Origin: Planctomycetota bacterium
Lineage (GTDB): Bacteria > Planctomycetota > Phycisphaerae > Phycisphaerales > Phycisphaeraceae
Assembly: GCA_021413865.1 (NCBI GenBank)
Contig: JAIOPN010000009.1
Coordinates: 1 to 63,751 of the forward strand
Direction: 5' to 3'
DNA length: 63,751 nt
Part shown: positions 4,602-63,615 of the stretch, one piece after another
Numbering within the stretch: position 1 is the first letter of the stretch
How the letters are laid out: each line of letters opens with the position of its first letter
Made by a program: the position numbers and the translations under genes
The notes under the pieces: generated by a model
What the model was told of the DNA's origin: nothing
Seen by the model: only the letters and a program-made list of their open reading frames with translations
The model's database searches: none

Positions 4602-4778
4602 CCCTTCTCCCCCCGTGTGAGGGTGGCGGCGTCCTCGCCGACGGGTGAGGGGACTTTCGGCGGGAATTGGTCAACCCATCACGCTGTGATCCGCGGATCA
4701 TTTGCATTGCCGCACGACCCAACCGGCCGGTGATCCCCTCACTCCGGCCCTCTCCCGGGGGGAGAGGGGGGGGGGGGA
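4602..4778. repeat. Composite intergenic inverted repeat, family A
   Basis: The left arm (4602-4654) ends in GCCGACGGGTGAGGGGAC. The right arm (about 4718-4778) reads CCGGCCGGTGATCCCCTCAC followed by a CCCTCTCCC/GGGAGAGGG hairpin. Matching arms recur at 12254-12399, 25268-25422 and 48001-48176, with half copies elsewhere. Translated, the arms give the LTPALS-type pseudo-peptides often seen in bacterial genomes. A run of ten or more G residues closes this copy. It fills the gap between the GlmU-like gene and lpd, and probably also provides RNA hairpins at the 3' end of the former. Confidence 0.8.
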
Positions 4779-4839
4779 AATCCCGCGCGCGGTTCCGCTA
4801 CAATCCCCGCTTGGTCGCGCGTTTTTCAAAGGGATACCC

Positions 4840-6291
4840 ATGGCGGACGTGGAGCGGTTTGATCTGCTGGTCATCGGCGGCGGCCCGGCGGGGTACGTCG
4901 GCGCGATCCGCGCGGCGCAGCTCGGCATGAAGGTCGGCTGCGTCGAGCGCGACAAGCTCGGGGGCATCTGCAACAACTGGGGCTGCATCCCCACCAAGGC
5001 GCTGCTCGCCGGGGCGGAGTTCTACAACCGCCTGCGCCACGAGGCGGGGGAGTGGGGCATCGCCGCCGACAACATCCGCCACGACTGGTCGAAGGTGATC
5101 GCGCGCTCGCGCGGCGTCGCCGACACCGGGGCGCGCGGGGTGGGCAGCCTGTTCAAGAAACACAAGATCGCCCACCTGCAGGGCCACGCACGCATCACCT
5201 CGGACAAGAGCCCGTTCACTGTCGAGGTCCACGACAAGCCCGACCACGTCGCCCAGACCGTGCAGGCGACGCGCCTCCTGGTCTGCACCGGGGCCCAGCC
5301 GCGCGAGCTGCCCGGCACCCCGTTCGATGGCGACCGCGTCATCTCGTATAAGGAAGCGATGAGCCTGCCGGCCCAGCCCAAGTCGCTGGTCATCGTCGGT
5401 GCCGGCGCGATCGGGATGGAGTTCGCCTACTTCTACAACGCCTTCGGCACCAAGGTCACGGTCGTCGAGATGCTCGACCGGTTGCTGCCCATCGAGGACA
5501 CAGAGGTCTCCGCCGCGATCCTCCGGTCGTTCCAGAAGCAGGGCATCGACTGCAAGCCCGGGCACAAGACCGCATCCATCAAGAAGACCGACACCGGCGT
5601 GGAGGTCGTGATCGAGCCCGCCGCCGGCGCGGGTGAAAAGACCACGCTCACCGCGGACAAGGTCCTCATCGCCGTCGGCGTGAAGGGCCGTTACGACGGC
5701 CTGTTCGCGCCCAGCGTGAAGGTCGAGACGTTCAAGGACCACATCAAGGTCGATTACAAGAAGCCCGGCGCGACGTACGAAACGAGCGTGAAAGGAATCT
5801 TTGCCGTTGGCGACGTGATCGGCCCGCCGTGGCTGGCGCACCTGGCGAGCGAGGAGGCGGTCGTCTGCGTGGAGCGGATCGCCGGGCACAAGCCGGTGGA
5901 CATCGACTACGACGCGGTGCCGGGCTGCACGTACTGCGTGCCGCAGGTGGCGAGCCTGGGCAAGACCGAGCAGGCGCTGCAGGCCGAGGGCAAGAAGGCG
6001 GGCGTGGATTACAAGGTCGGCAAGTTCCCCTTCATGGCCAGCGGCAAGGCGCGGGCCGCCGGCCACACCGAGGGGTTCGTCAAGATCATCAGCGACGCGA
6101 AATACGGCGAGATCCTCGGCGTGCACATGATCGGCGACAACGTCACCGAGCTGCTGGCCGAGATGGGCCTGGCCAAGCGGCTGGAGGCGACGGTGGAAGA
6201 GATCATCGAGACGCTGCACGCGCACCCGACGCTCAGCGAAGCCGTTCACGAGGCGGCGCTAGGCACGCAGGGGCGGATGATCCATCTCTGA
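4840..6291 (+). CDS. lpdA: Dihydrolipoyl dehydrogenase (E3)
   Basis: A 483-aa flavoprotein that reoxidises dihydrolipoamide of 2-oxoacid dehydrogenases or of the glycine cleavage H-protein. The FAD-binding GGGPAGYVGAIRAAQLG is near residue 13. The redox-active disulfide is in GGICNNWGCIPTKAL, with the expected C-x4-C spacing. The NAD-binding GAGAIGMEFA is near residue 185, and the C-terminal active-site HAHPTLSEAVHEAA carries the His-Glu pair. The reading frame is open upstream into the family A repeat, but homology starts at MADVERFDLLVIG, so the ATG at 4840 is chosen. It could serve the GcvPA/PB system encoded in this window, although it is not linked to it. Confidence 0.95.
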   Translation: MADVERFDLLVIGGGPAGYVGAIRAAQLGMKVGCVERDKLGGICNNWGCIPTKALLAGAEFYNRLRHEAGEWGIAADNIRHDWSKVIARSRGVADTGARGVGSLFKKHKIAHLQGHARITSDKSPFTVEVHDKPDHVAQTVQATRLLVCTGAQPRELPGTPFDGDRVISYKEAMSLPAQPKSLVIVGAGAIGMEFAYFYNAFGTKVTVVEMLDRLLPIEDTEVSAAILRSFQKQGIDCKPGHKTASIKKTDTGVEVVIEPAAGAGEKTTLTADKVLIAVGVKGRYDGLFAPSVKVETFKDHIKVDYKKPGATYETSVKGIFAVGDVIGPPWLAHLASEEAVVCVERIAGHKPVDIDYDAVPGCTYCVPQVASLGKTEQALQAEGKKAGVDYKVGKFPFMASGKARAAGHTEGFVKIISDAKYGEILGVHMIGDNVTELLAEMGLAKRLEATVEEIIETLHAHPTLSEAVHEAALGTQGRMIHL

Positions 6292-7694: not shown

Positions 7695-7773
7695 GATTCA
7701 CTCCTTATTGGATAGGGGTCCCCGAAAACATAACGAGCCACCATTATAACCAACGCATCTCCGGTGGACACAT

Positions 7774-7884
7774 CCCATAGCCCCCGGCTCGGCCGGGGGG
7801 TTCCGCGAGCGATTCCCGGATACCGCAGATATGCCACGCGTGCGGTGATCCAACAAGAACCCCCCGGCCGAGCCGGGGGCTATG
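7774..7884. repeat. Inverted repeat, family B, long form
   Basis: Arms CCCATAGCCCCCGGCTCGGC and its reverse complement GCCGAGCCGGGGGCTATGGG flank about 70 bp. The interior matches, in reverse orientation, the interior of the copy at 32600-32714 (shared TTGGATCA and ATTGCTCGCGG-like stretches). Solo hairpins of the same arms occur at 14296-14329 and 61238-61270. It lies directly 3' of the Rieske gene and could terminate its transcription. Confidence 0.85.
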
Positions 7885-7892
7885 GGCGGAAT

Positions 7893-8402
7893 TCACCCCA
7901 CCGGCAGGGTGCTCGCCGGGTCGGACCATTCCCCTTTGTCGTCGCGGAAGCGGCGGGTCGGGTCCACCCGGACCTGCCCATCCTGCACGGCAAGCGTGCA
8001 GCGCTCCAGCGGGCGTTTGGCCTTGAAGCCTTCGACCTGGCGGCCGTCGGTCTTGAACTCACTCTTGTGGCAGGGGCACTTGAACACCTGCGTCTCCGCG
8101 ACCCAGTTCGTCGTGCAGCCGACGTGCGTACACGTCGCGCTCAGGGCGACGAGTTGCTTGCCGTCGCTGACCAGCCAGACGCCCTTCAGGGCCTTGTATT
8201 CGTCGTACACCCCCGCGTTCTTGTATTTGCCCGGCTCGCCGATCAGGAACGGCTCGGTGGCGAGGTTGGCCTTGTCTTTATCCTTATCCTTGTCCTTGCC
8301 GCTCTGCGTGGCCGGCGCCGGCTCGGTTTTGCTGTCGCAGCCCATGACGGTCAGCGTCACGGCGGTGGCGGCGGCGGTGAACGCGCGGCGGGTGATGTCC
8401 AT
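7893..8402 (-). CDS. Rieske [2Fe-2S] protein with Tat/lipoprotein signal
   Basis: A 169-aa protein. The N-terminus ITRRAFTAAATAVTLTVMGC combines a twin-arginine motif with a lipobox (VMGC), suggesting folded export and membrane anchoring. A linker holds a KDKDKDKDK run. The Rieske cluster ligands are intact: CTHVGC and, about 18 residues later, CPCHKSEF, the C-x-H and C-x-x-H pairs for a [2Fe-2S] centre. The protein is short and resembles the Rieske subunits of planctomycete alternative or cytochrome bc-like complexes, but no cytochrome b gene is adjacent. It probably transfers electrons at the membrane; the partner is unknown. Confidence 0.88.
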   Translation of the reverse strand: MDITRRAFTAAATAVTLTVMGCDSKTEPAPATQSGKDKDKDKDKANLATEPFLIGEPGKYKNAGVYDEYKALKGVWLVSDGKQLVALSATCTHVGCTTNWVAETQVFKCPCHKSEFKTDGRQVEGFKAKRPLERCTLAVQDGQVRVDPTRRFRDDKGEWSDPASTLPVG

Positions 8403-56272: not shown

Positions 56273-56608
56273 CGGCGGGCTCGGGTCAATGGAGGATGTG
56301 GGTCATGGGATGATCCAGCGATGAGCCCCGCCTTACCGCCGGGGCTTCACCCTGCCTGCGAAGGCCGAGAACCGACGCGAACGAGTATATAGGTTGAATC
56401 CGGTGGGGCGGGCGTTCCGCCCGCCCCACCGGACACCCCAACATTTCAGAGTAACCCAATACGGCAGCAACTCATTCAGACAAAAGAGGTTGTGTTGATT
56501 GCTCCGGACAAGTAAACTTTACCGCACCAATAGAGCATTGGCCGAGGGTAAAATCGCGGGCGGGTGGTGTCGCACGACTCGGATACCACCACCGCGGCCT
56601 CTTCCGTC
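56273..56608. other. Divergent intergenic region with family C short hairpin
   Basis: A 336-bp gap holding promoters for potA and the prepilin-like gene. At 56402-56431, GGTGGGGCGGGCG-TTCC-CGCCCGCCCCACC is a near-perfect solo hairpin of family C. The stretch 56455-56545 is AT-richer (AAGTAAACTTTACC, partly palindromic). No small ORF was convincing. Confidence 0.5.
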
Positions 56609-57298
56609 ATGCCTTGCCCAACGAACCAACGCCGCCCCGCCTTCACGCTCATCGAGCTGTTGGTCACCCTGTCCATCATCGCCCTGCTGATCGGCATCCT
56701 GCTGCCGGTGCTCGCCAATGCCCGCGCCAGGGCGCGCGTCACCGAGTGCTCCGCCCAGCTCAAGCAGTTGGGCCTGGCGACGGGCTCATACCTCAACGAC
56801 TACAAGGAAGTCTTCTACTGGCTGGGCAAGTCCGTGGATAACGAGGGCATGGACTGGTACGTCTGGGGCGGGACCGAGACCGTGCTCAACAAGAGCCAGA
56901 ACGGCGTTTACCCCGAGGGGCTCTTCAACCACTTCAAGCCCCGCCCGCTCAACCCCTACGTCGGCACGCTCAACGCCTTCCACTGCCCCGGCGACACGAT
57001 GCGCTGGTTCTGGTCCAGCGCGCAGGGCGACAGCCTCTTCGAGTGGGTCGGCAACAGCTACCAGTTCAATACCGTGGCCTACACCAGCGCCAACACCATC
57101 GGTCTGGCGGGCGTCCGCCTCACCCAGGTCCGCCAGCCGACGCACACCGTGCTCTATGGCGACGCGGCGCTGCTCCAGTACTACACCGACACCAAGTACT
57201 GGCACCCCGACCACAAGGGCAACGTGGTCTTCGTCGACGGCCACGCCGAGTTCATGGGCTTCCCCTGGGAAGGCCCGGACTACACCTGGAACCCCTGA
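56609..57298 (+). CDS. Prepilin-like protein with H-x-DG end motif
   Basis: A 229-aa type II pseudopilin-like protein. The N-terminal prepilin signal is RRPAFTLIELLVTLSIIALL; the residue before the Phe cleavage site is Ala instead of the usual Gly. The rest is the soluble planctomycete-type domain ending in VVFVDGHAEFM, the motif behind the H-x-DG naming of these expanded families. It is expected to be exported and processed by prepilin peptidase. The GTG at 56564 is an alternative start. It is followed after 35 bp by the CNNM-like gene. Confidence 0.85.
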   Translation: MPCPTNQRRPAFTLIELLVTLSIIALLIGILLPVLANARARARVTECSAQLKQLGLATGSYLNDYKEVFYWLGKSVDNEGMDWYVWGGTETVLNKSQNGVYPEGLFNHFKPRPLNPYVGTLNAFHCPGDTMRWFWSSAQGDSLFEWVGNSYQFNTVAYTSANTIGLAGVRLTQVRQPTHTVLYGDAALLQYYTDTKYWHPDHKGNVVFVDGHAEFMGFPWEGPDYTWNP

Positions 57299-59407: not shown

Positions 59408-60268
59408 TCACGGCGTCGCCGTGGGGGAGAGCTCCGTCACAGGGGTGGACATCTCCCAATCCTGCTTCTTCGTGCGGCGCTCGGCGCAGATCGGGCCGAC
59501 GTGCTTCATCCACGCCGCGAACTCGGGTGTGTTCATGAAGTCGTGGAGCGTGGCGCGTTTGCGGTAGGGCACGTAGTTGCCGATGTGCCAGAGGGAGTTG
59601 CGGTAGAGCAGGAAGTCGCCGGCGTCGAGGTGGACCTGCGTGGCGCCGGGGAGGGACTTGCAGTATTCGAGGCAGGCGCGCTCGCGTTCCTCGTCGCAGG
59701 TGCAGGCCGAGAGGTCCGGGCCGTTGATCGGCCGGGTGGGGAACCGCGCGGTCTCGCCGGGCAGGTCGCGGCGCATGTGGCTGCCGGGGACGACCCACGT
59801 CGAGAGGTCTTCATACAAGGCGCAGTTGACCTGGTTGAAGAGGCGGAGGTTGGTGATCTGCGGCTCCCACTCGGCCAGGGGCAGGCCGGTCATGTTGTCG
59901 CGCCAGTCACGGTGCCACGCGGTGCACCAGGATTCGGCGGCGGGCTCGATCAGGATGCCCAGCCCGCAATCCTTGCCCTCACGGATGCCCCACCAGTTCT
60001 CGTGGGGGAGAACCGTGTCCACCGCCTTTCGCAGGTCGGGCAGGTTGGAGTAGTCGCGGAACGGCTGGAGGTTCAGCTCGTTGGGGTAGCGGGTGACGGG
60101 CTGGAGGCGCTGGGCGCTGGGGCCGGCCGCCTTGCGCGCGACCTCGCGCGCCTTGTCGGCCTCGCGGCGCAGGTCGCGGATCAGCGTCGGCGGGATGATC
60201 CGCCGGAACACGACAAAGCCGTTGAGGTGGTAGCTCCTGAGATCGTCGTCGGTCACTTGGTAGGCCAT
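59408..60268 (-). CDS. Phytanoyl-CoA dioxygenase-like oxygenase
   Basis: A 286-aa PhyH-fold enzyme starting MAYQVTDDDLRSYHLNGFVV. The first iron ligands are in CTAWHRDWRDN (H-x-x-D or H-R-D), and WVVPGSHMRRDLPGE and LWHIGNYVPYRKRATLH give the distal His and the Arg. A long Cys-containing loop (CTCDEERERACLEYC) is specific to it. It lies 46 nt downstream of a close paralogue (60315-61154) on the same strand, a second tandem PhyH pair in the window. Substrate unknown. Confidence 0.88.
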   Translation of the reverse strand: MAYQVTDDDLRSYHLNGFVVFRRIIPPTLIRDLRREADKAREVARKAAGPSAQRLQPVTRYPNELNLQPFRDYSNLPDLRKAVDTVLPHENWWGIREGKDCGLGILIEPAAESWCTAWHRDWRDNMTGLPLAEWEPQITNLRLFNQVNCALYEDLSTWVVPGSHMRRDLPGETARFPTRPINGPDLSACTCDEERERACLEYCKSLPGATQVHLDAGDFLLYRNSLWHIGNYVPYRKRATLHDFMNTPEFAAWMKHVGPICAERRTKKQDWEMSTPVTELSPTATP

Positions 60269-60314
60269 GGGATTCCTCAAGAACAGAGGTAGTAGGGGGT
60301 TGGGGATTGTAGTT

Positions 60315-61154
60315 TCAGGCAACCGCGGGGGCGGCGGCGGCGGCGGGCTGGAGGTCGGCCTTGCGCGTCCAGCGCGGCGAGCCGCCCTTGATCCACTGCC
60401 GCCACCACGCCTCGTACTCGGGCGTGAAGACGGCGTCGTGGAGCGTGGCGCGTTTTTTGTACGGCGTGTAGTTGCCCGTGTGCCAGCCGATGGGGCGGTA
60501 CATGGCGAAGTCGCCCGCGTTGAGCCGCAGCTGCACCGCGCCGGGCATGCCCATCGTGTAGTTCAGGCAGAGCCGCTCGCGCTCAACCGGGTCCGTCACC
60601 TTGCCGAACGGCTGCCAGTTTTTGTCGGGTGAATTGTTGGCGGCGAAGACCTCGCCGGGCATGTCGCGCATCCGCAGGTTGCTGCCGGGCACGAACCAGG
60701 TGCAGTCGTCGTCGTACAGCGGGCAGTTCACCTGGTTGGCGCTGTTCCAGTCGAGCATGATGTCCACGAACTCCTCGACGGGCAGGCGCGAGGTGGCGAG
60801 CGTCATGTCGCGGTGCCAGGCGGTGCACCAGGGCATCGTCGTCGGGCTCAGGAGGATACCCATCGCGTTGAGGTTGCCGGTGTAGTGGCGCGGCGAGAGC
60901 ACCTGGTCCAGCGCCTCGCGCAGCTCGGGGAGTTGGGCGTACTCGCGGAAGGGCTTGAGGTCGAGCAGGCCCTCGTGCTTGTCCACGGGCTGGAGGCGCT
61001 GCGCGTTGACGTCGGTCTTGTGGGCGAAGTCGGCGGCCTTGTCCGCCTCGCGGCGCAGGTCGCGCACGAGCGAGACGGGCACGACCTGGCGGAACACGAT
61101 GTAACCGTCCCGGTAGTAACCGGTGATCTGCTCTTCGCTTAGTTTGTAGGCCAT
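60315..61154 (-). CDS. Phytanoyl-CoA dioxygenase-like oxygenase, tandem paralogue
   Basis: A 279-aa paralogue of the downstream gene: MAYKLSEEQITGYYRDGYIV at the start, DLRREADKA, SAQRLQPV-like NAQRLQPV, CTAWHRDMTLA (iron ligands), WFVPGSNLRMRDMPGE, and WHTGNYTPYKKRATLHD (distal His/Arg). The C-terminus is a poly-Ala/Pro tail. GGGAG precedes the ATG. A family B hairpin and a cobalamin riboswitch lie upstream but point the other way. The substrate is unknown. Confidence 0.88.
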   Translation of the reverse strand: MAYKLSEEQITGYYRDGYIVFRQVVPVSLVRDLRREADKAADFAHKTDVNAQRLQPVDKHEGLLDLKPFREYAQLPELREALDQVLSPRHYTGNLNAMGILLSPTTMPWCTAWHRDMTLATSRLPVEEFVDIMLDWNSANQVNCPLYDDDCTWFVPGSNLRMRDMPGEVFAANNSPDKNWQPFGKVTDPVERERLCLNYTMGMPGAVQLRLNAGDFAMYRPIGWHTGNYTPYKKRATLHDAVFTPEYEAWWRQWIKGGSPRWTRKADLQPAAAAAPAVA

Positions 61155-61270: not shown

Positions 61271-61334
61271 CGGAGGGACGTACATGCGCCGAGACCCTTG
61301 CATCTTCCGCCGCGACGGGATAAGTTCGCTCCCG

Positions 61335-61582
61335 GACCGATAGGTGCCCGCGGGAGTACCGCCCTTGAGGCGGCTTGCGGGTGAAAAGGGAAGTGGGGTG
61401 CGGAACGGCTGGTGGAAACACCGGTTGTTCCAACTCCCCCGCGGACGCGCCGCCGTAAAGGGCGGATCAGGGTGCGAAGTGCACCGCTGACCCAGGGCCG
61501 ACGAAACGCCACTGACGATCCCGCAATGGGGCCGTCGGGAAGGCGCAAAGGCCTCAGCCCCAAGCCGGAAGACCTGCCTGTC
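61335..61582 (+). ncRNA. Cobalamin (B12) riboswitch
   Basis: The conserved elements of the cobalamin aptamer are present in order on the plus strand: ATAGGTGCC at 61340, GGTGAAAAGGGAA at about 61380-61392, a P5/P6-like arm ending CCCCCGC near 61440, GCCACTG at 61508-61514, GGGAAGGCG at 61537-61545, and CCCCAAGCCGGAAGACCTGC (the B12 box region) at 61559-61578. The length of about 245 nt is normal to long. The downstream 150 nt contain CTGTTC-GAACAG and other short stems that could be the expression platform before the ATG at 61734. The sequence pattern is specific; confidence is high that it is this class. Confidence 0.9.
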
Positions 61583-61733
61583 GAGTGCCGTTGTGTGTCC
61601 TCGCGAATGGGACGCCGCGGGCTCGATCTGTTCATTTCCCCTTTGAACAGTTCCCCCCGGCAAAAAACTCCCACGTGAGGGCGGTCTCTTCACACAAGGG
61701 GTTGCCCCGCGCGAATCGGGGCAGGGAGTCTGT

Positions 61734-62324
61734 ATGCAGGTCCGCGGTCCTATCGTGTCCTTTTCCAGTTTCCGTGGTCTGCTCGTTGCCGTGGCGCTGA
61801 TGGCGGGGGTGCTGTTCCTCGCCACGCCCAACGCCCGCGCGGCGACCGTCACCCCCGTCGGCACCGGGGACAGTTGGGCGGGCGTCGTAGTCCAGTTTCA
61901 GAACGGCCACACCTATGCCTTCCAGGTTTTCTACACCGGCCCGACGACGACGGGCATCAATTTGCTGGACATCCTCGACAGCGGATTGGGCGCTGACTTC
62001 ACGCTCACGGCGCCCGACTTCCCGCCCTTCGGCCGGTTCGTGGACGGCATCGGCTACCTGACCGACAGCAACAGCGGCTACGGCGGCGGCGACAACTGGT
62101 GGCACTACTGGACCAAGGACGCCGGCGCTCCCGCGTGGTACCTGGGCCTGGGCGCCGAGGACCCGGGCGCGACCACCCGCGTCATCCACAACGGCGACCT
62201 CGATGGCTGGGTGTACGGCAGCGAGACCGCGCCCTCCATCTCCTCCATCCCCGAGCCGACCGCCATCCTGATCCTCGGAACCGCCGTGCCCATGCTGCTC
62301 GCACGCCGACGAACCCGTCGATGA
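61734..62324 (+). CDS. PEP-CTERM protein with transcobalamin-like (DUF4430-like) domain
   Basis: A 196-aa exported protein. The signal peptide ends near NARAA (residues 1-37). Residues about 60-163 follow the DUF4430/transcobalamin C-terminal pattern: TTTGINLLDIL, FGRFVDGIGYL, NWWHYWTKDAGAPAWYLGLG and IHNGDLDGWVYG. In transcobalamin and intrinsic factor this beta-domain contacts the vitamin. The tail SSIPEPTAILILGTAVPMLL with RRRTRR is a PEP-CTERM sorting signal. The SD AGGGAG precedes the ATG. A B12 riboswitch lies directly upstream and a prepilin-like gene overlaps downstream, suggesting B12 binding at the surface (inference). Confidence 0.82.
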   Translation: MQVRGPIVSFSSFRGLLVAVALMAGVLFLATPNARAATVTPVGTGDSWAGVVVQFQNGHTYAFQVFYTGPTTTGINLLDILDSGLGADFTLTAPDFPPFGRFVDGIGYLTDSNSGYGGGDNWWHYWTKDAGAPAWYLGLGAEDPGATTRVIHNGDLDGWVYGSETAPSISSIPEPTAILILGTAVPMLLARRRTRR

Positions 62325-63139
62325 GTGTTTGCGTTCCATCACGCGGCCGCGCCTCCGCCCCCGGTGTCGGGGGGGGCGGAGGCCGGCGCGCGTTTACGCT
62401 GGTCGAGCTGATGGTCGTCATCTCGATCATCGCGATCCTGATGGGCCTGCTCATGCCCGCGTTGGGCGCGGGGCGGGACTCGGCGCGGGCCACGCGCTGC
62501 CTGGCGAACCTCTCCTCGCTGGGCCGGGGGATGGGCATGTACCACAACGACTTCAAGGAGTATTTCATCCCCGGCTATCGCGCCAACTGGCCGGTCGCGG
62601 GACGCACCACCTATTTCTGGGGCTCGATCAAGCCCGGTGGCTCGGTCGAGCGCTCCGCCAGCGGGTTCATGACCTACCTCTCCGAAACGAGCGAGGCCTT
62701 CACCTGCCCGATGCAGCCCTGGGGGAGCTACATCCCCCAGGCCGGCGCCAACGAGACGACGACCAACTTCGGCTACAACGGCTGGTGCCTCGACCCGCCC
62801 TGGTGGAACCGCAAGGACTCGGGCGGCAACCCGATGCCGCGTAAACGCCTGGCCGACGTCACGCGGCCCGACCAGCTCTTCGTCTTCGCCGACTCGGCGA
62901 TGTTCTGGAAGCCCGCGGGCATCCCCGTCCTCCAGAACAGCACCTCGCTCGACCCCGTCTCCTTCAACGGCACGGCCAACACAACGCCCACCACCCATTT
63001 CCGGCACCACGGCCGGGCCAACGCGCTCACCGCCGACGCCGCCGCCCGCGCCTACGACACCGAGGGCGTGGCCATGTTCAACCCGGAAAAAAACACCGGG
63101 TTCGTCGGGGCCGACAACAAGCCGCACTACGACCAGTGA
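62321..63139 (+). CDS. Prepilin-like protein in the riboswitch operon
   Basis: A 272-aa pseudopilin-like protein: RRAFTLVELMVVISIIAILM is a standard prepilin signal with Ala before the Phe. The soluble part contains CLANLSSLGRGMGMYHNDFK and TTHFRHHGRANALTADAAAR, an H-x-DG-type ending with Ala-Asp. The ATG overlaps the stop of the PEP-CTERM gene (ATGA), so the two are translationally coupled and both under the cobalamin riboswitch. It may be a minor pilin assembling or presenting the partner; no secretion ATPase is near. Confidence 0.85.
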   Translation: MSVCVPSRGRASAPGVGGGGGRRAFTLVELMVVISIIAILMGLLMPALGAGRDSARATRCLANLSSLGRGMGMYHNDFKEYFIPGYRANWPVAGRTTYFWGSIKPGGSVERSASGFMTYLSETSEAFTCPMQPWGSYIPQAGANETTTNFGYNGWCLDPPWWNRKDSGGNPMPRKRLADVTRPDQLFVFADSAMFWKPAGIPVLQNSTSLDPVSFNGTANTTPTTHFRHHGRANALTADAAARAYDTEGVAMFNPEKNTGFVGADNKPHYDQ

Positions 63140-63201: not shown

Positions 63202-63615
63202 ATGAAACACGCAATCACGCTGATCCTGTGCTTCCTCCTCGTCGCCGCCCTGAGCGGCTGCTCGCGCGAGGAGTACAAACAGGGCGGGCTGGGCGTCGAT
63301 TCGGTGTGGGGCAAGAAAATCAACGCGATGCTCAGCGAGCTGCGCGCCCAGGGCATCAACAAGATCGACGACATCCTCGCCGCGCAGGCGAACCCGGGGC
63401 TGAACGCCGATGAGCTGTCACGCGTGCGCAACTCGGTGACGCGCCTGATCGAGGCGCCCTCCGCCAAGCTCATCAGCGTCGATTCGTTTGGCGACCAAGC
63501 CATCCGCGCGGGCTTCGAGATCACCATCTCCAAGGACGGCAAGGAAGTGCCGACACAGGTGTACATGCTCCTGACGAACATGGACAACAAGCTCTACTGG
63601 CTCGGGCCGAACTAG
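63202..63615 (+). CDS. Small lipoprotein of unknown function
   Basis: A 137-aa lipoprotein (ITLILCFLLVAALSGCSREE; lipobox LSGC). The mature part is a helical segment (MLSELRAQGINKIDDILAAQ) followed by a beta-rich end (AGFEITISKDGKEVPTQVYM). No family recognised. It lies 62 nt after the prepilin-like gene on the same strand and could still belong to the riboswitch transcript, but has its own gap with possible promoter (GGTATAGTTGATG at 63181). Confidence 0.75.
   Translation: MKHAITLILCFLLVAALSGCSREEYKQGGLGVDSVWGKKINAMLSELRAQGINKIDDILAAQANPGLNADELSRVRNSVTRLIEAPSAKLISVDSFGDQAIRAGFEITISKDGKEVPTQVYMLLTNMDNKLYWLGPN

Follow-up and report, generated by a model that had tools for sequence, protein, structure and literature searches.

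Several ways of capturing vitamin B12 (cobalamin) outside the bacterial cell are described in the literature. In Bacteroides, BtuH2 binds B12 and aids its transport (PMC8941943), and secreted B12 binders of the beta-jelly-roll family DUF4465 (BtuJ) occur across phyla (PMC12751083, PMC13398666), including a tested binder from the planctomycete Mucisphaera calidilacus, class Phycisphaerae (PMC13398666). A different fold was implicated by Burroughs et al. in 2007 (PMC1796856), who described, within the SLBB beta-grasp superfamily, a transcobalamin-like (TCN-like) clade with two conserved glycines and with members in planctomycetes. As presented in the main text of that paper, most of the clade carries signal peptides, its domains generally lie in predicted operons with CbiO/CbiQ, and B12 scavenging was predicted from fold and context; the terms riboswitch, pilin and PEP-CTERM are absent from that text. 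Here we analyze a 63,751-nucleotide stretch of DNA, hereafter the window, from a Planctomycetota bacterium of the Phycisphaeraceae (assembly GCA_021413865.1, contig JAIOPN010000009.1, positions 1–63,751; 4.37-Mb genome, assembly completeness 95%). A same-strand gene run closes the window, with a cobalamin aptamer at its head followed by a 196-aa protein, a pseudopilin and a probable lipoprotein (Table 1). We conclude that this run is probably a B12-repressed operon that captures B12 outside the cell.

Compared with the TCN-like clade, the window adds a cobalamin riboswitch, a PEP-CTERM-like tail and a pseudopilin partner. With the Bacteroides proteins BtuH and BtuGH (PMC8941943; Protein Data Bank (PDB) entries 7biz and 8blw) it would share riboswitch-controlled extracellular B12 capture, but its binder is of a different fold and carries a PEP-CTERM-like tail in place of a lipid anchor, and no TonB receptor was found in the genome. 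The BtuJ/DUF4465 proteins resemble it as secreted B12 binders and differ in belonging to a beta-jelly-roll family; DUF4465 membership was ruled out, neither the window protein (Pfam, E ≤ 1) nor any of 71 aligned domain members giving a match. Actinobacterial SCO2321/SCO2322-like proteins (names taken from sub-cut-off NCBIfam matches), encoded near an energy-coupling-factor (ECF)-type transporter gene (CbiQ), have the window's domain and an upstream aptamer, whereas they are fused to toroid repeats, anchored in another way and linked to an inner-membrane transporter gene.

The well-formed B12 aptamer reported in the initial annotation was confirmed by covariance search, which gave a significant match over the whole of the RF00174 model (gathering score 31.5 bits). 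It is the sole RF00174 match found in the genome; the search scored 150 of 276 first-look candidates there, and divergent aptamers under the threshold could have escaped it. The stretch 61,570–61,745 folds at −75.7 kcal/mol (z −2.4), with 4 of 200 shuffles equally good. The 138-nucleotide leader that separates the aptamer from the start codon is strongly folded and gave no terminator-like site, and a GC hairpin lies against its ribosome-binding site; these features suggest translational control.

The association between aptamer and protein extends far beyond this genome. In a first sample of 80 other genomes, 10 contain a relative of the window protein. RF00174 matches over the gathering score lie upstream in five of these; four more have cobalamin-clan matches below it (E 2.9e-5 to 0.037), and in the last, locus L008, part of the aptamer core is visible by eye. 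Relatives are present in 129 of 400 genomes of the order. Rfam searches of 20 further loci at E ≤ 1 had matches at nine, every one to the cobalamin clan, and none at 11, while RF00174 exceeded its gathering score at 11 of 12 more distant relatives. We then used a covariance model, R1, built from 12 aptamers (11 sub-gathering Rfam matches and L008, read by eye), on genome contigs in which 81 stretches encode a relative and 80 loci were retained. Upstream of the gene and on its strand, 76 of the 80 have an aptamer: 60 of 62 loci by R1; six of seven others; all four in Kiritimatiellae, at the head of the operon; L071 and not L074; L078, which is the same record as L004; and the four Streptomyces loci, three over the RF00174 gathering score and the fourth by R1. 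Training records account for 11 of the 60 R1 hits, L135 and L136 sharing one record, and without them the count is 49 of 51. In the same 755 kb, the weakest upstream aptamer scored 57.6 bits against 16.4 bits for the best match elsewhere. Of the four misses, two (L126 and L134) have no more than 40 bases between their start and a contig end. Some loci of the different sets are the same records (L014/L078, L015/L117, L017/L118 and L018/L113).

Many of the planctomycete aptamers at L005–L007 and L031–L050 fall below Rfam gathering scores though clearly conserved, and standard annotation could therefore miss them. Locus L056 carries two cobalamin aptamers within 3.4 kb (4662–4940 and 7760–8031, plus strand), with BtuH-like genes about 0.2 and 1.3 kb after. 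Planctomycete-type loci also occur in records titled Limnohabitans, Bacteroidia, Chitinophaga and Hyphomonas (L090, L095, L108, L126 and L136), which are probably mislabelled metagenome-assembled genomes. At L080:13976–14174 there are Acido-Lenti-1 RNA matches, one per strand, one just below and one below the gathering score.

The 196-aa protein begins with a signal peptide that is evident by eye, in agreement with the initial annotation, and the tryptophan-rich NWWHYW block pointed out there was found and is conserved. An alignment of 71 sequences shows no variation at W87, W90 and W123 of the 132-residue domain and also contains nearly invariant glycines. The tail had been called VPEP-type; a PEP-CTERM-like tail is indeed there, with the motif IPEP. 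Several relatives have tails over the TIGR02595 cut-off, and the exosortase family PF09721 is matched at two loci of the genome (C47 and C5), so that PEP-CTERM sorting, also proposed there, gains support from relatives and genome while the window protein's own tail stays sub-threshold.

Sequence comparison of the body was uninformative. Nothing in Pfam or NCBIfam exceeded its cut-off, and the top Pfam match of the whole protein was a sub-threshold one to DUF4386 (14.8 versus 27.6 bits). Searches of PDB sequences by phmmer and with profiles (the protein, alignments A1, A2 and A5) and with single neighbour proteins returned chance hits or none; profile comparison with a Streptomyces DUF4430-like protein returned nothing; and PF14478 (DUF4430) was matched in 0 of 61 genomes at E ≤ 0.01. 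No relatives of the window protein were found in viral contigs, and none of the distant relative L064 in plasmids. A second, longer subgroup with the consensus FDDIxxWVGSGANxAALVIDWNDG..WGYRWDG is homologous (hhalign probability 99.1, E 1.8e-18).

The predicted structure was far more telling. AlphaFold2, given residues 37–168 with an alignment (A4) of the window protein and 70 homologues from named records, modeled the 132-residue body with a predicted local distance difference test (pLDDT) score of 93.6 and a predicted template-modeling (pTM) score of 0.88. When this model was compared with the PDB by VIA-align, ranks 1–14 were all intrinsic factor, haptocorrin or transcobalamin (Z 12.0–13.6, root-mean-square deviation 2.0–2.5 Å, superpositions of 100–107 residues at 8–14% identity). 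Next came 3u7z at Z 11.8, titled a putative metal-binding protein, after which scores fell to 7.2 for Urm1-type proteins; we take 3u7z to carry the DUF4430 label. Foldseek put cobalamin-bound human intrinsic factor first (E 0.026, probability 1.00), ahead of two chains of 3u7z. Among the top 14 VIA entries is 5np4, whose title describes the human transcobalamin beta-domain with bound cyanocobalamin, which indicates that the beta-domain can hold the vitamin on its own; the 196-aa protein has no alpha/alpha toroid and holds the beta-like domain alone. The model has strands at 53–56, 59–60, 69–72 and 75–78 after a helix at 38–52; these strand pairs may correspond to the beta-hairpin that is inserted after the helix in the TCN-like clade (PMC1796856). 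The low identity, the missing toroid and the lack of a DUF4430 match set the window protein apart from the animal carriers proper. The body is transcobalamin-like by predicted fold, not by sequence, and the DUF4430-like assignment of the initial annotation holds in the former sense and fails in the latter.

Further links to B12 come from neighbors and fusions. A secreted protein of one family (A5) is encoded next to the relative at 18 loci (17 distinct records) out of the 109 tabulated, and a pseudopilin always accompanies it. An A5 model from 10 sequences (pLDDT 84.7) had only two Foldseek matches below 0.001, 8blw_B (titled BtuG1, since renamed BtuGH in PMC12751083; E 5.1e-6) and BtuH2 (7biz, E 1.3e-4), and the same entries took VIA ranks 1 and 2 (Z 13.2 and 12.8, 23–24% identity). 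As the Foldseek alignments are loose (TMq 0.37) and other folds follow in the VIA list (PAPP-A at Z 10.8, then CBM32/discoidin-type domains), the designation of A5 as BtuH-like rests on rank and identity. At L063:5634–7148 (minus strand), a single 504-aa open reading frame (ORF) joins a transcobalamin-like and a BtuH-like domain. No BtuH-like gene lies within 3 kb in the window operon. In Streptomyces locus L149, the same domain forms part of a 949-aa protein with squalene-cyclase/prenyltransferase-type (alpha/alpha) toroid repeats, encoded two genes from a CbiQ gene; this fusion combines both halves of transcobalamin, though in a different order. Three more RF00174 aptamers at L149:4295–7490 surround divergent toroid-type and DUF4430-like genes, forming a dense B12 regulon.

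The host appears to need imported B12, since its genome has MetH, methylmalonyl-CoA mutase and MeaB and no match to CbiC. It also appears to lack BtuB, since TonB-dependent receptors (PF00593) gave 0 matches and 0 candidates in this genome (95% complete), in a search that was positive in the E. coli, Caulobacter and Bacteroides controls. One FecCD permease gene adjoins that of a BtuF-like lipoprotein, making up a BtuF/BtuC-like pair.

The third element of the operon is a prepilin-like protein, as initially annotated, with an N-methylation motif over the cut-offs of both PF07963 and TIGR02532; the major pseudopilin model GspG (TIGR01710) was matched at 34.4 bits, under its cut-off of 88.85. The ATGA overlap with the preceding gene is likewise as described. 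Counting pseudopilins within 3 kb on the same strand, we found one in all six non-f3 loci of the first set (L013–L022) and in none of the four f3 loci, in nine of the 12 loci L053–L064 (L054 lacks downstream sequence), in 11 of 14 window-like loci (L071–L081, L119, L132 and L134; L077 has 26 downstream bases), and in none of L065–L070 (0/6) or of the four Streptomyces loci. Window-type operons, a term that denotes gene order and similarity and not a proven clade, share the pseudopilin in two phyla (Phycisphaerae and Kiritimatiellae) with varying gene order. The Kiritimatiellae operons run from the aptamer through a BtuH-like and a pseudopilin gene to the transcobalamin-like gene. The window and three other genomes have the transcobalamin-like gene first, then the pseudopilin and lipoprotein genes, and all of them except L055 have the aptamer in front. 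The small lipoprotein gene of the window lies beyond the coordinates given in the initial annotation; its homologues (L003/L013, L055 and L060) share 28–33% identity. A C-terminal tail of the GF[VLI][SG]..N..Y[DN] type is present in 12 of 17 pseudopilins of B12 loci, and within this genome in one of 13 readable pseudopilin-like ORFs, the window's own; seven of the 20 pseudopilin-like places have no readable ORF and are excluded from that count. The gene pairing is thus conserved in relatives, as the synteny check had asked, and the pseudopilin is a conserved and probably specialized partner of a subset of the family, not of the whole.

A second pseudopilin, of the DUF1559 type, is encoded in the window at 56,564–57,298 (plus strand); its H-X9-DG tail is sub-threshold, and it lacks the B12-type tail. 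In three genomes a gene for a small BFD-like [2Fe-2S] protein follows the pseudopilin of the B12 locus (L057:3495–3719, minus strand; L020 and L022, by eye), the L057 protein scoring 21.6 bits against PF04324, below the cut-off of 26. Divergent to the B12 operon, the window holds two adjoining phytanoyl-CoA dioxygenase (PhyH) family genes (59,408–61,154, minus strand).

Table 1 Features of the B12 operon at the end of the window
Feature	Position in the window	Strand	Evidence or remark
Cobalamin (B12) riboswitch aptamer	61325..61595	+	RF00174 62.2 bits, E 5.5e-13, model 1-189 of 189
Leader from aptamer to start codon, probable expression platform	61596..61733	+	GC hairpin CCCCG...CGGGG abutting GGGAG ribosome-binding site
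196-aa secreted protein (signal peptide, transcobalamin-beta-like domain, PEP-CTERM-like tail IPEP...RRRTRR)	61734..62324	+	ATG to stop
Transcobalamin/intrinsic-factor beta-domain-like beta-grasp domain, residues 37-168	61842..62237	+	AlphaFold2 and VIA-align
PEP-CTERM-like sorting tail, sub-threshold	62247..62321	+	TIGR02595 14.6 bits, cut-off 16
272-aa pseudopilin, ATG within preceding stop (ATGA)	62321..63139	+	PF07963 28.8 bits over 21.2; TIGR02532 26.3 over 16.3
Pseudopilin C-terminal tail GFVGADNKPHYDQ	63098..63136	+	Recurs in pseudopilins of B12 loci
137-aa probable lipoprotein, fourth element of the run	63202..63615	+	Homologues after pseudopilin in three other genomes

These data are consistent with the following mechanism. 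First, when cellular B12 is low, the leader would open and the operon would be expressed; when B12 is plentiful, the operon would be shut, probably at translation, both steps being modeled on known riboswitches. Fold and regulation together suggest that the beta-domain would bind cobamides outside the inner membrane and that the exosortase-type tail would hold the binder at the surface. More tentatively, the pseudopilin might join an assembly akin to type II/IV pili, and this assembly could display the binder or else pull B12, once loaded, toward or across the outer membrane. Finally, the BtuF/BtuC-like ATP-binding cassette (ABC) proteins of the genome would take B12 over after the outer-membrane step. 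Leaving the pseudopilin step aside, we hold the core of this scheme, B12-repressed capture outside the cell, with considerable confidence. Riboswitch-controlled extracellular capture by a transcobalamin-like domain, as put forward in the initial annotation, is well supported at the level of predicted structure, with the covariance, structure and synteny checks all turning out in its favor. That a pseudopilus displays or retrieves the binder is speculative, and we regard as rather unlikely the full scheme of TonB-independent uptake, in which a B12-repressed pseudopilus-like assembly would carry or retrieve the transcobalamin-like binder and move B12 across the outer membrane.

Several observations weigh against this interpretation. 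No aptamer was found ahead of the relatives in L055, L074 and L133, and a search for a sigma-70-type promoter-like site found none. The window protein's own sorting tail scores under the TIGR02595 cut-off, and neither the protein nor any of the 71 domain members matches PF14478 at E ≤ 1. Foldseek returned no PDB match for the domain at E ≤ 0.001, so the case for the fold rests on the VIA ranking. The BtuF/BtuC-like pair is under the NCBIfam cut-offs for BtuF and BtuC. Across the order, PF00593 was commoner in carriers of a relative (53 of 129) than in non-carriers (71 of 271; Fisher p = 0.004), a count that assumes both genome lists to cover the same 400 genomes, and in the window's family it was present in four of 12 carriers versus 17 of 37 others (p = 0.52). 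Replacement of BtuB by this system as a general rule was therefore rejected; such replacement may apply in this genome only. Lastly, 62 other relatives, six of which have under 400 downstream bases, have no strong pseudopilin neighbor (one weak match), and 60 of the 62 have an aptamer. A universal pseudopilin was rejected on this ground, and the pseudopilin is evidently not needed for the core function.

The same 62 relatives favor the strongest alternative, namely that B12 capture is right and the pseudopilin stands outside uptake, as a secretion helper for surface proteins or a co-regulated bystander drawn from the larger pool of pseudopilins in the genome. The genome's 20 pseudopilin-like matches at E ≤ 10 (12 below 0.001) and 16 T2SSE-type ATPase matches (15 over the cut-off) also indicate that its type II/IV machinery serves other ends too. 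However, this alternative has to contend with the recurrent pairing described above, in two phyla and with varying gene order, and with the common C-terminal tail, unseen in the 12 other readable pseudopilin-like ORFs of the genome. On balance we give it a substantial chance, somewhat short of even. The initial proposal that the pseudopilin presents the binder at the surface has partial support, which comes from the conserved pairing in window-type operons and does not extend to the whole family.

Could the transcobalamin-type fold instead serve another ligand or a scaffold role, with the riboswitch there for a different reason, such as cobalt handling? The beta-grasp fold serves many ligands (PMC1796856), the title of 3u7z speaks of putative metal binding, and of two similar BtuK proteins one did not bind B12 (PMC12751083). 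However, the mammalian B12 carriers ranked first, well above the Urm1-type beta-grasp proteins, and the aptamers in 76 of 80 relatives, the toroid fusions in Streptomyces, the BtuH-like neighbors and the one fusion with such a domain all point to B12, making this explanation improbable. That a genuine aptamer merely happens to neighbor the gene, its B12 regulation being coincidental, finds some room in the 138-nucleotide length of the leader and its putative switching structure, but same-strand aptamers upstream of 76 of 80 relatives and the gap in R1 scores across 755 kb reduce its probability to almost nothing.

B12 capture by the transcobalamin-like protein therefore remains our preferred reading. 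We found no published description of this operon in a search that covered titles and abstract openings for part of the matches, with subscription journals and preprints outside its range. Within that search, both the riboswitch operon and its coupling with a pseudopilin appear to be new; TCN-like planctomycete domains and their predicted B12 scavenging were already known (PMC1796856). An analogy may be drawn with the pili-like fibers of planctomycete crateriform structures, which bind dextran (PMC5394234): both would involve pilus-like appendages that bind an external nutrient which then reaches the periplasm, whereas the ligand there is a polysaccharide and the available part of that report assigns no gene. 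A connection between those fibers and this pseudopilin is speculation on our part.

The findings bear on B12 acquisition in several ways. For the bacterial transcobalamin-like domains, predicted as B12 scavengers in 2007, there is now a tie to cobalamin riboswitches, seen in 76 of 80 relatives. These domains extend the BtuG/H/J/K set by another likely class of surface B12 binders, this one from environmental phyla, and the findings are also relevant to the prokaryotic ancestry of the B12 carriers of animals. The pairing of a specific pseudopilin with a likely nutrient makes the passage of a large nutrient across the outer membrane, in a host with no detectable TonB receptor, a testable matter. 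We know of no gene so far linked to the dextran-binding fibers of planctomycetes; if TonB-independent uptake by a pseudopilus is true, it would provide a direct molecular handle on fiber-based nutrient uptake in these bacteria.

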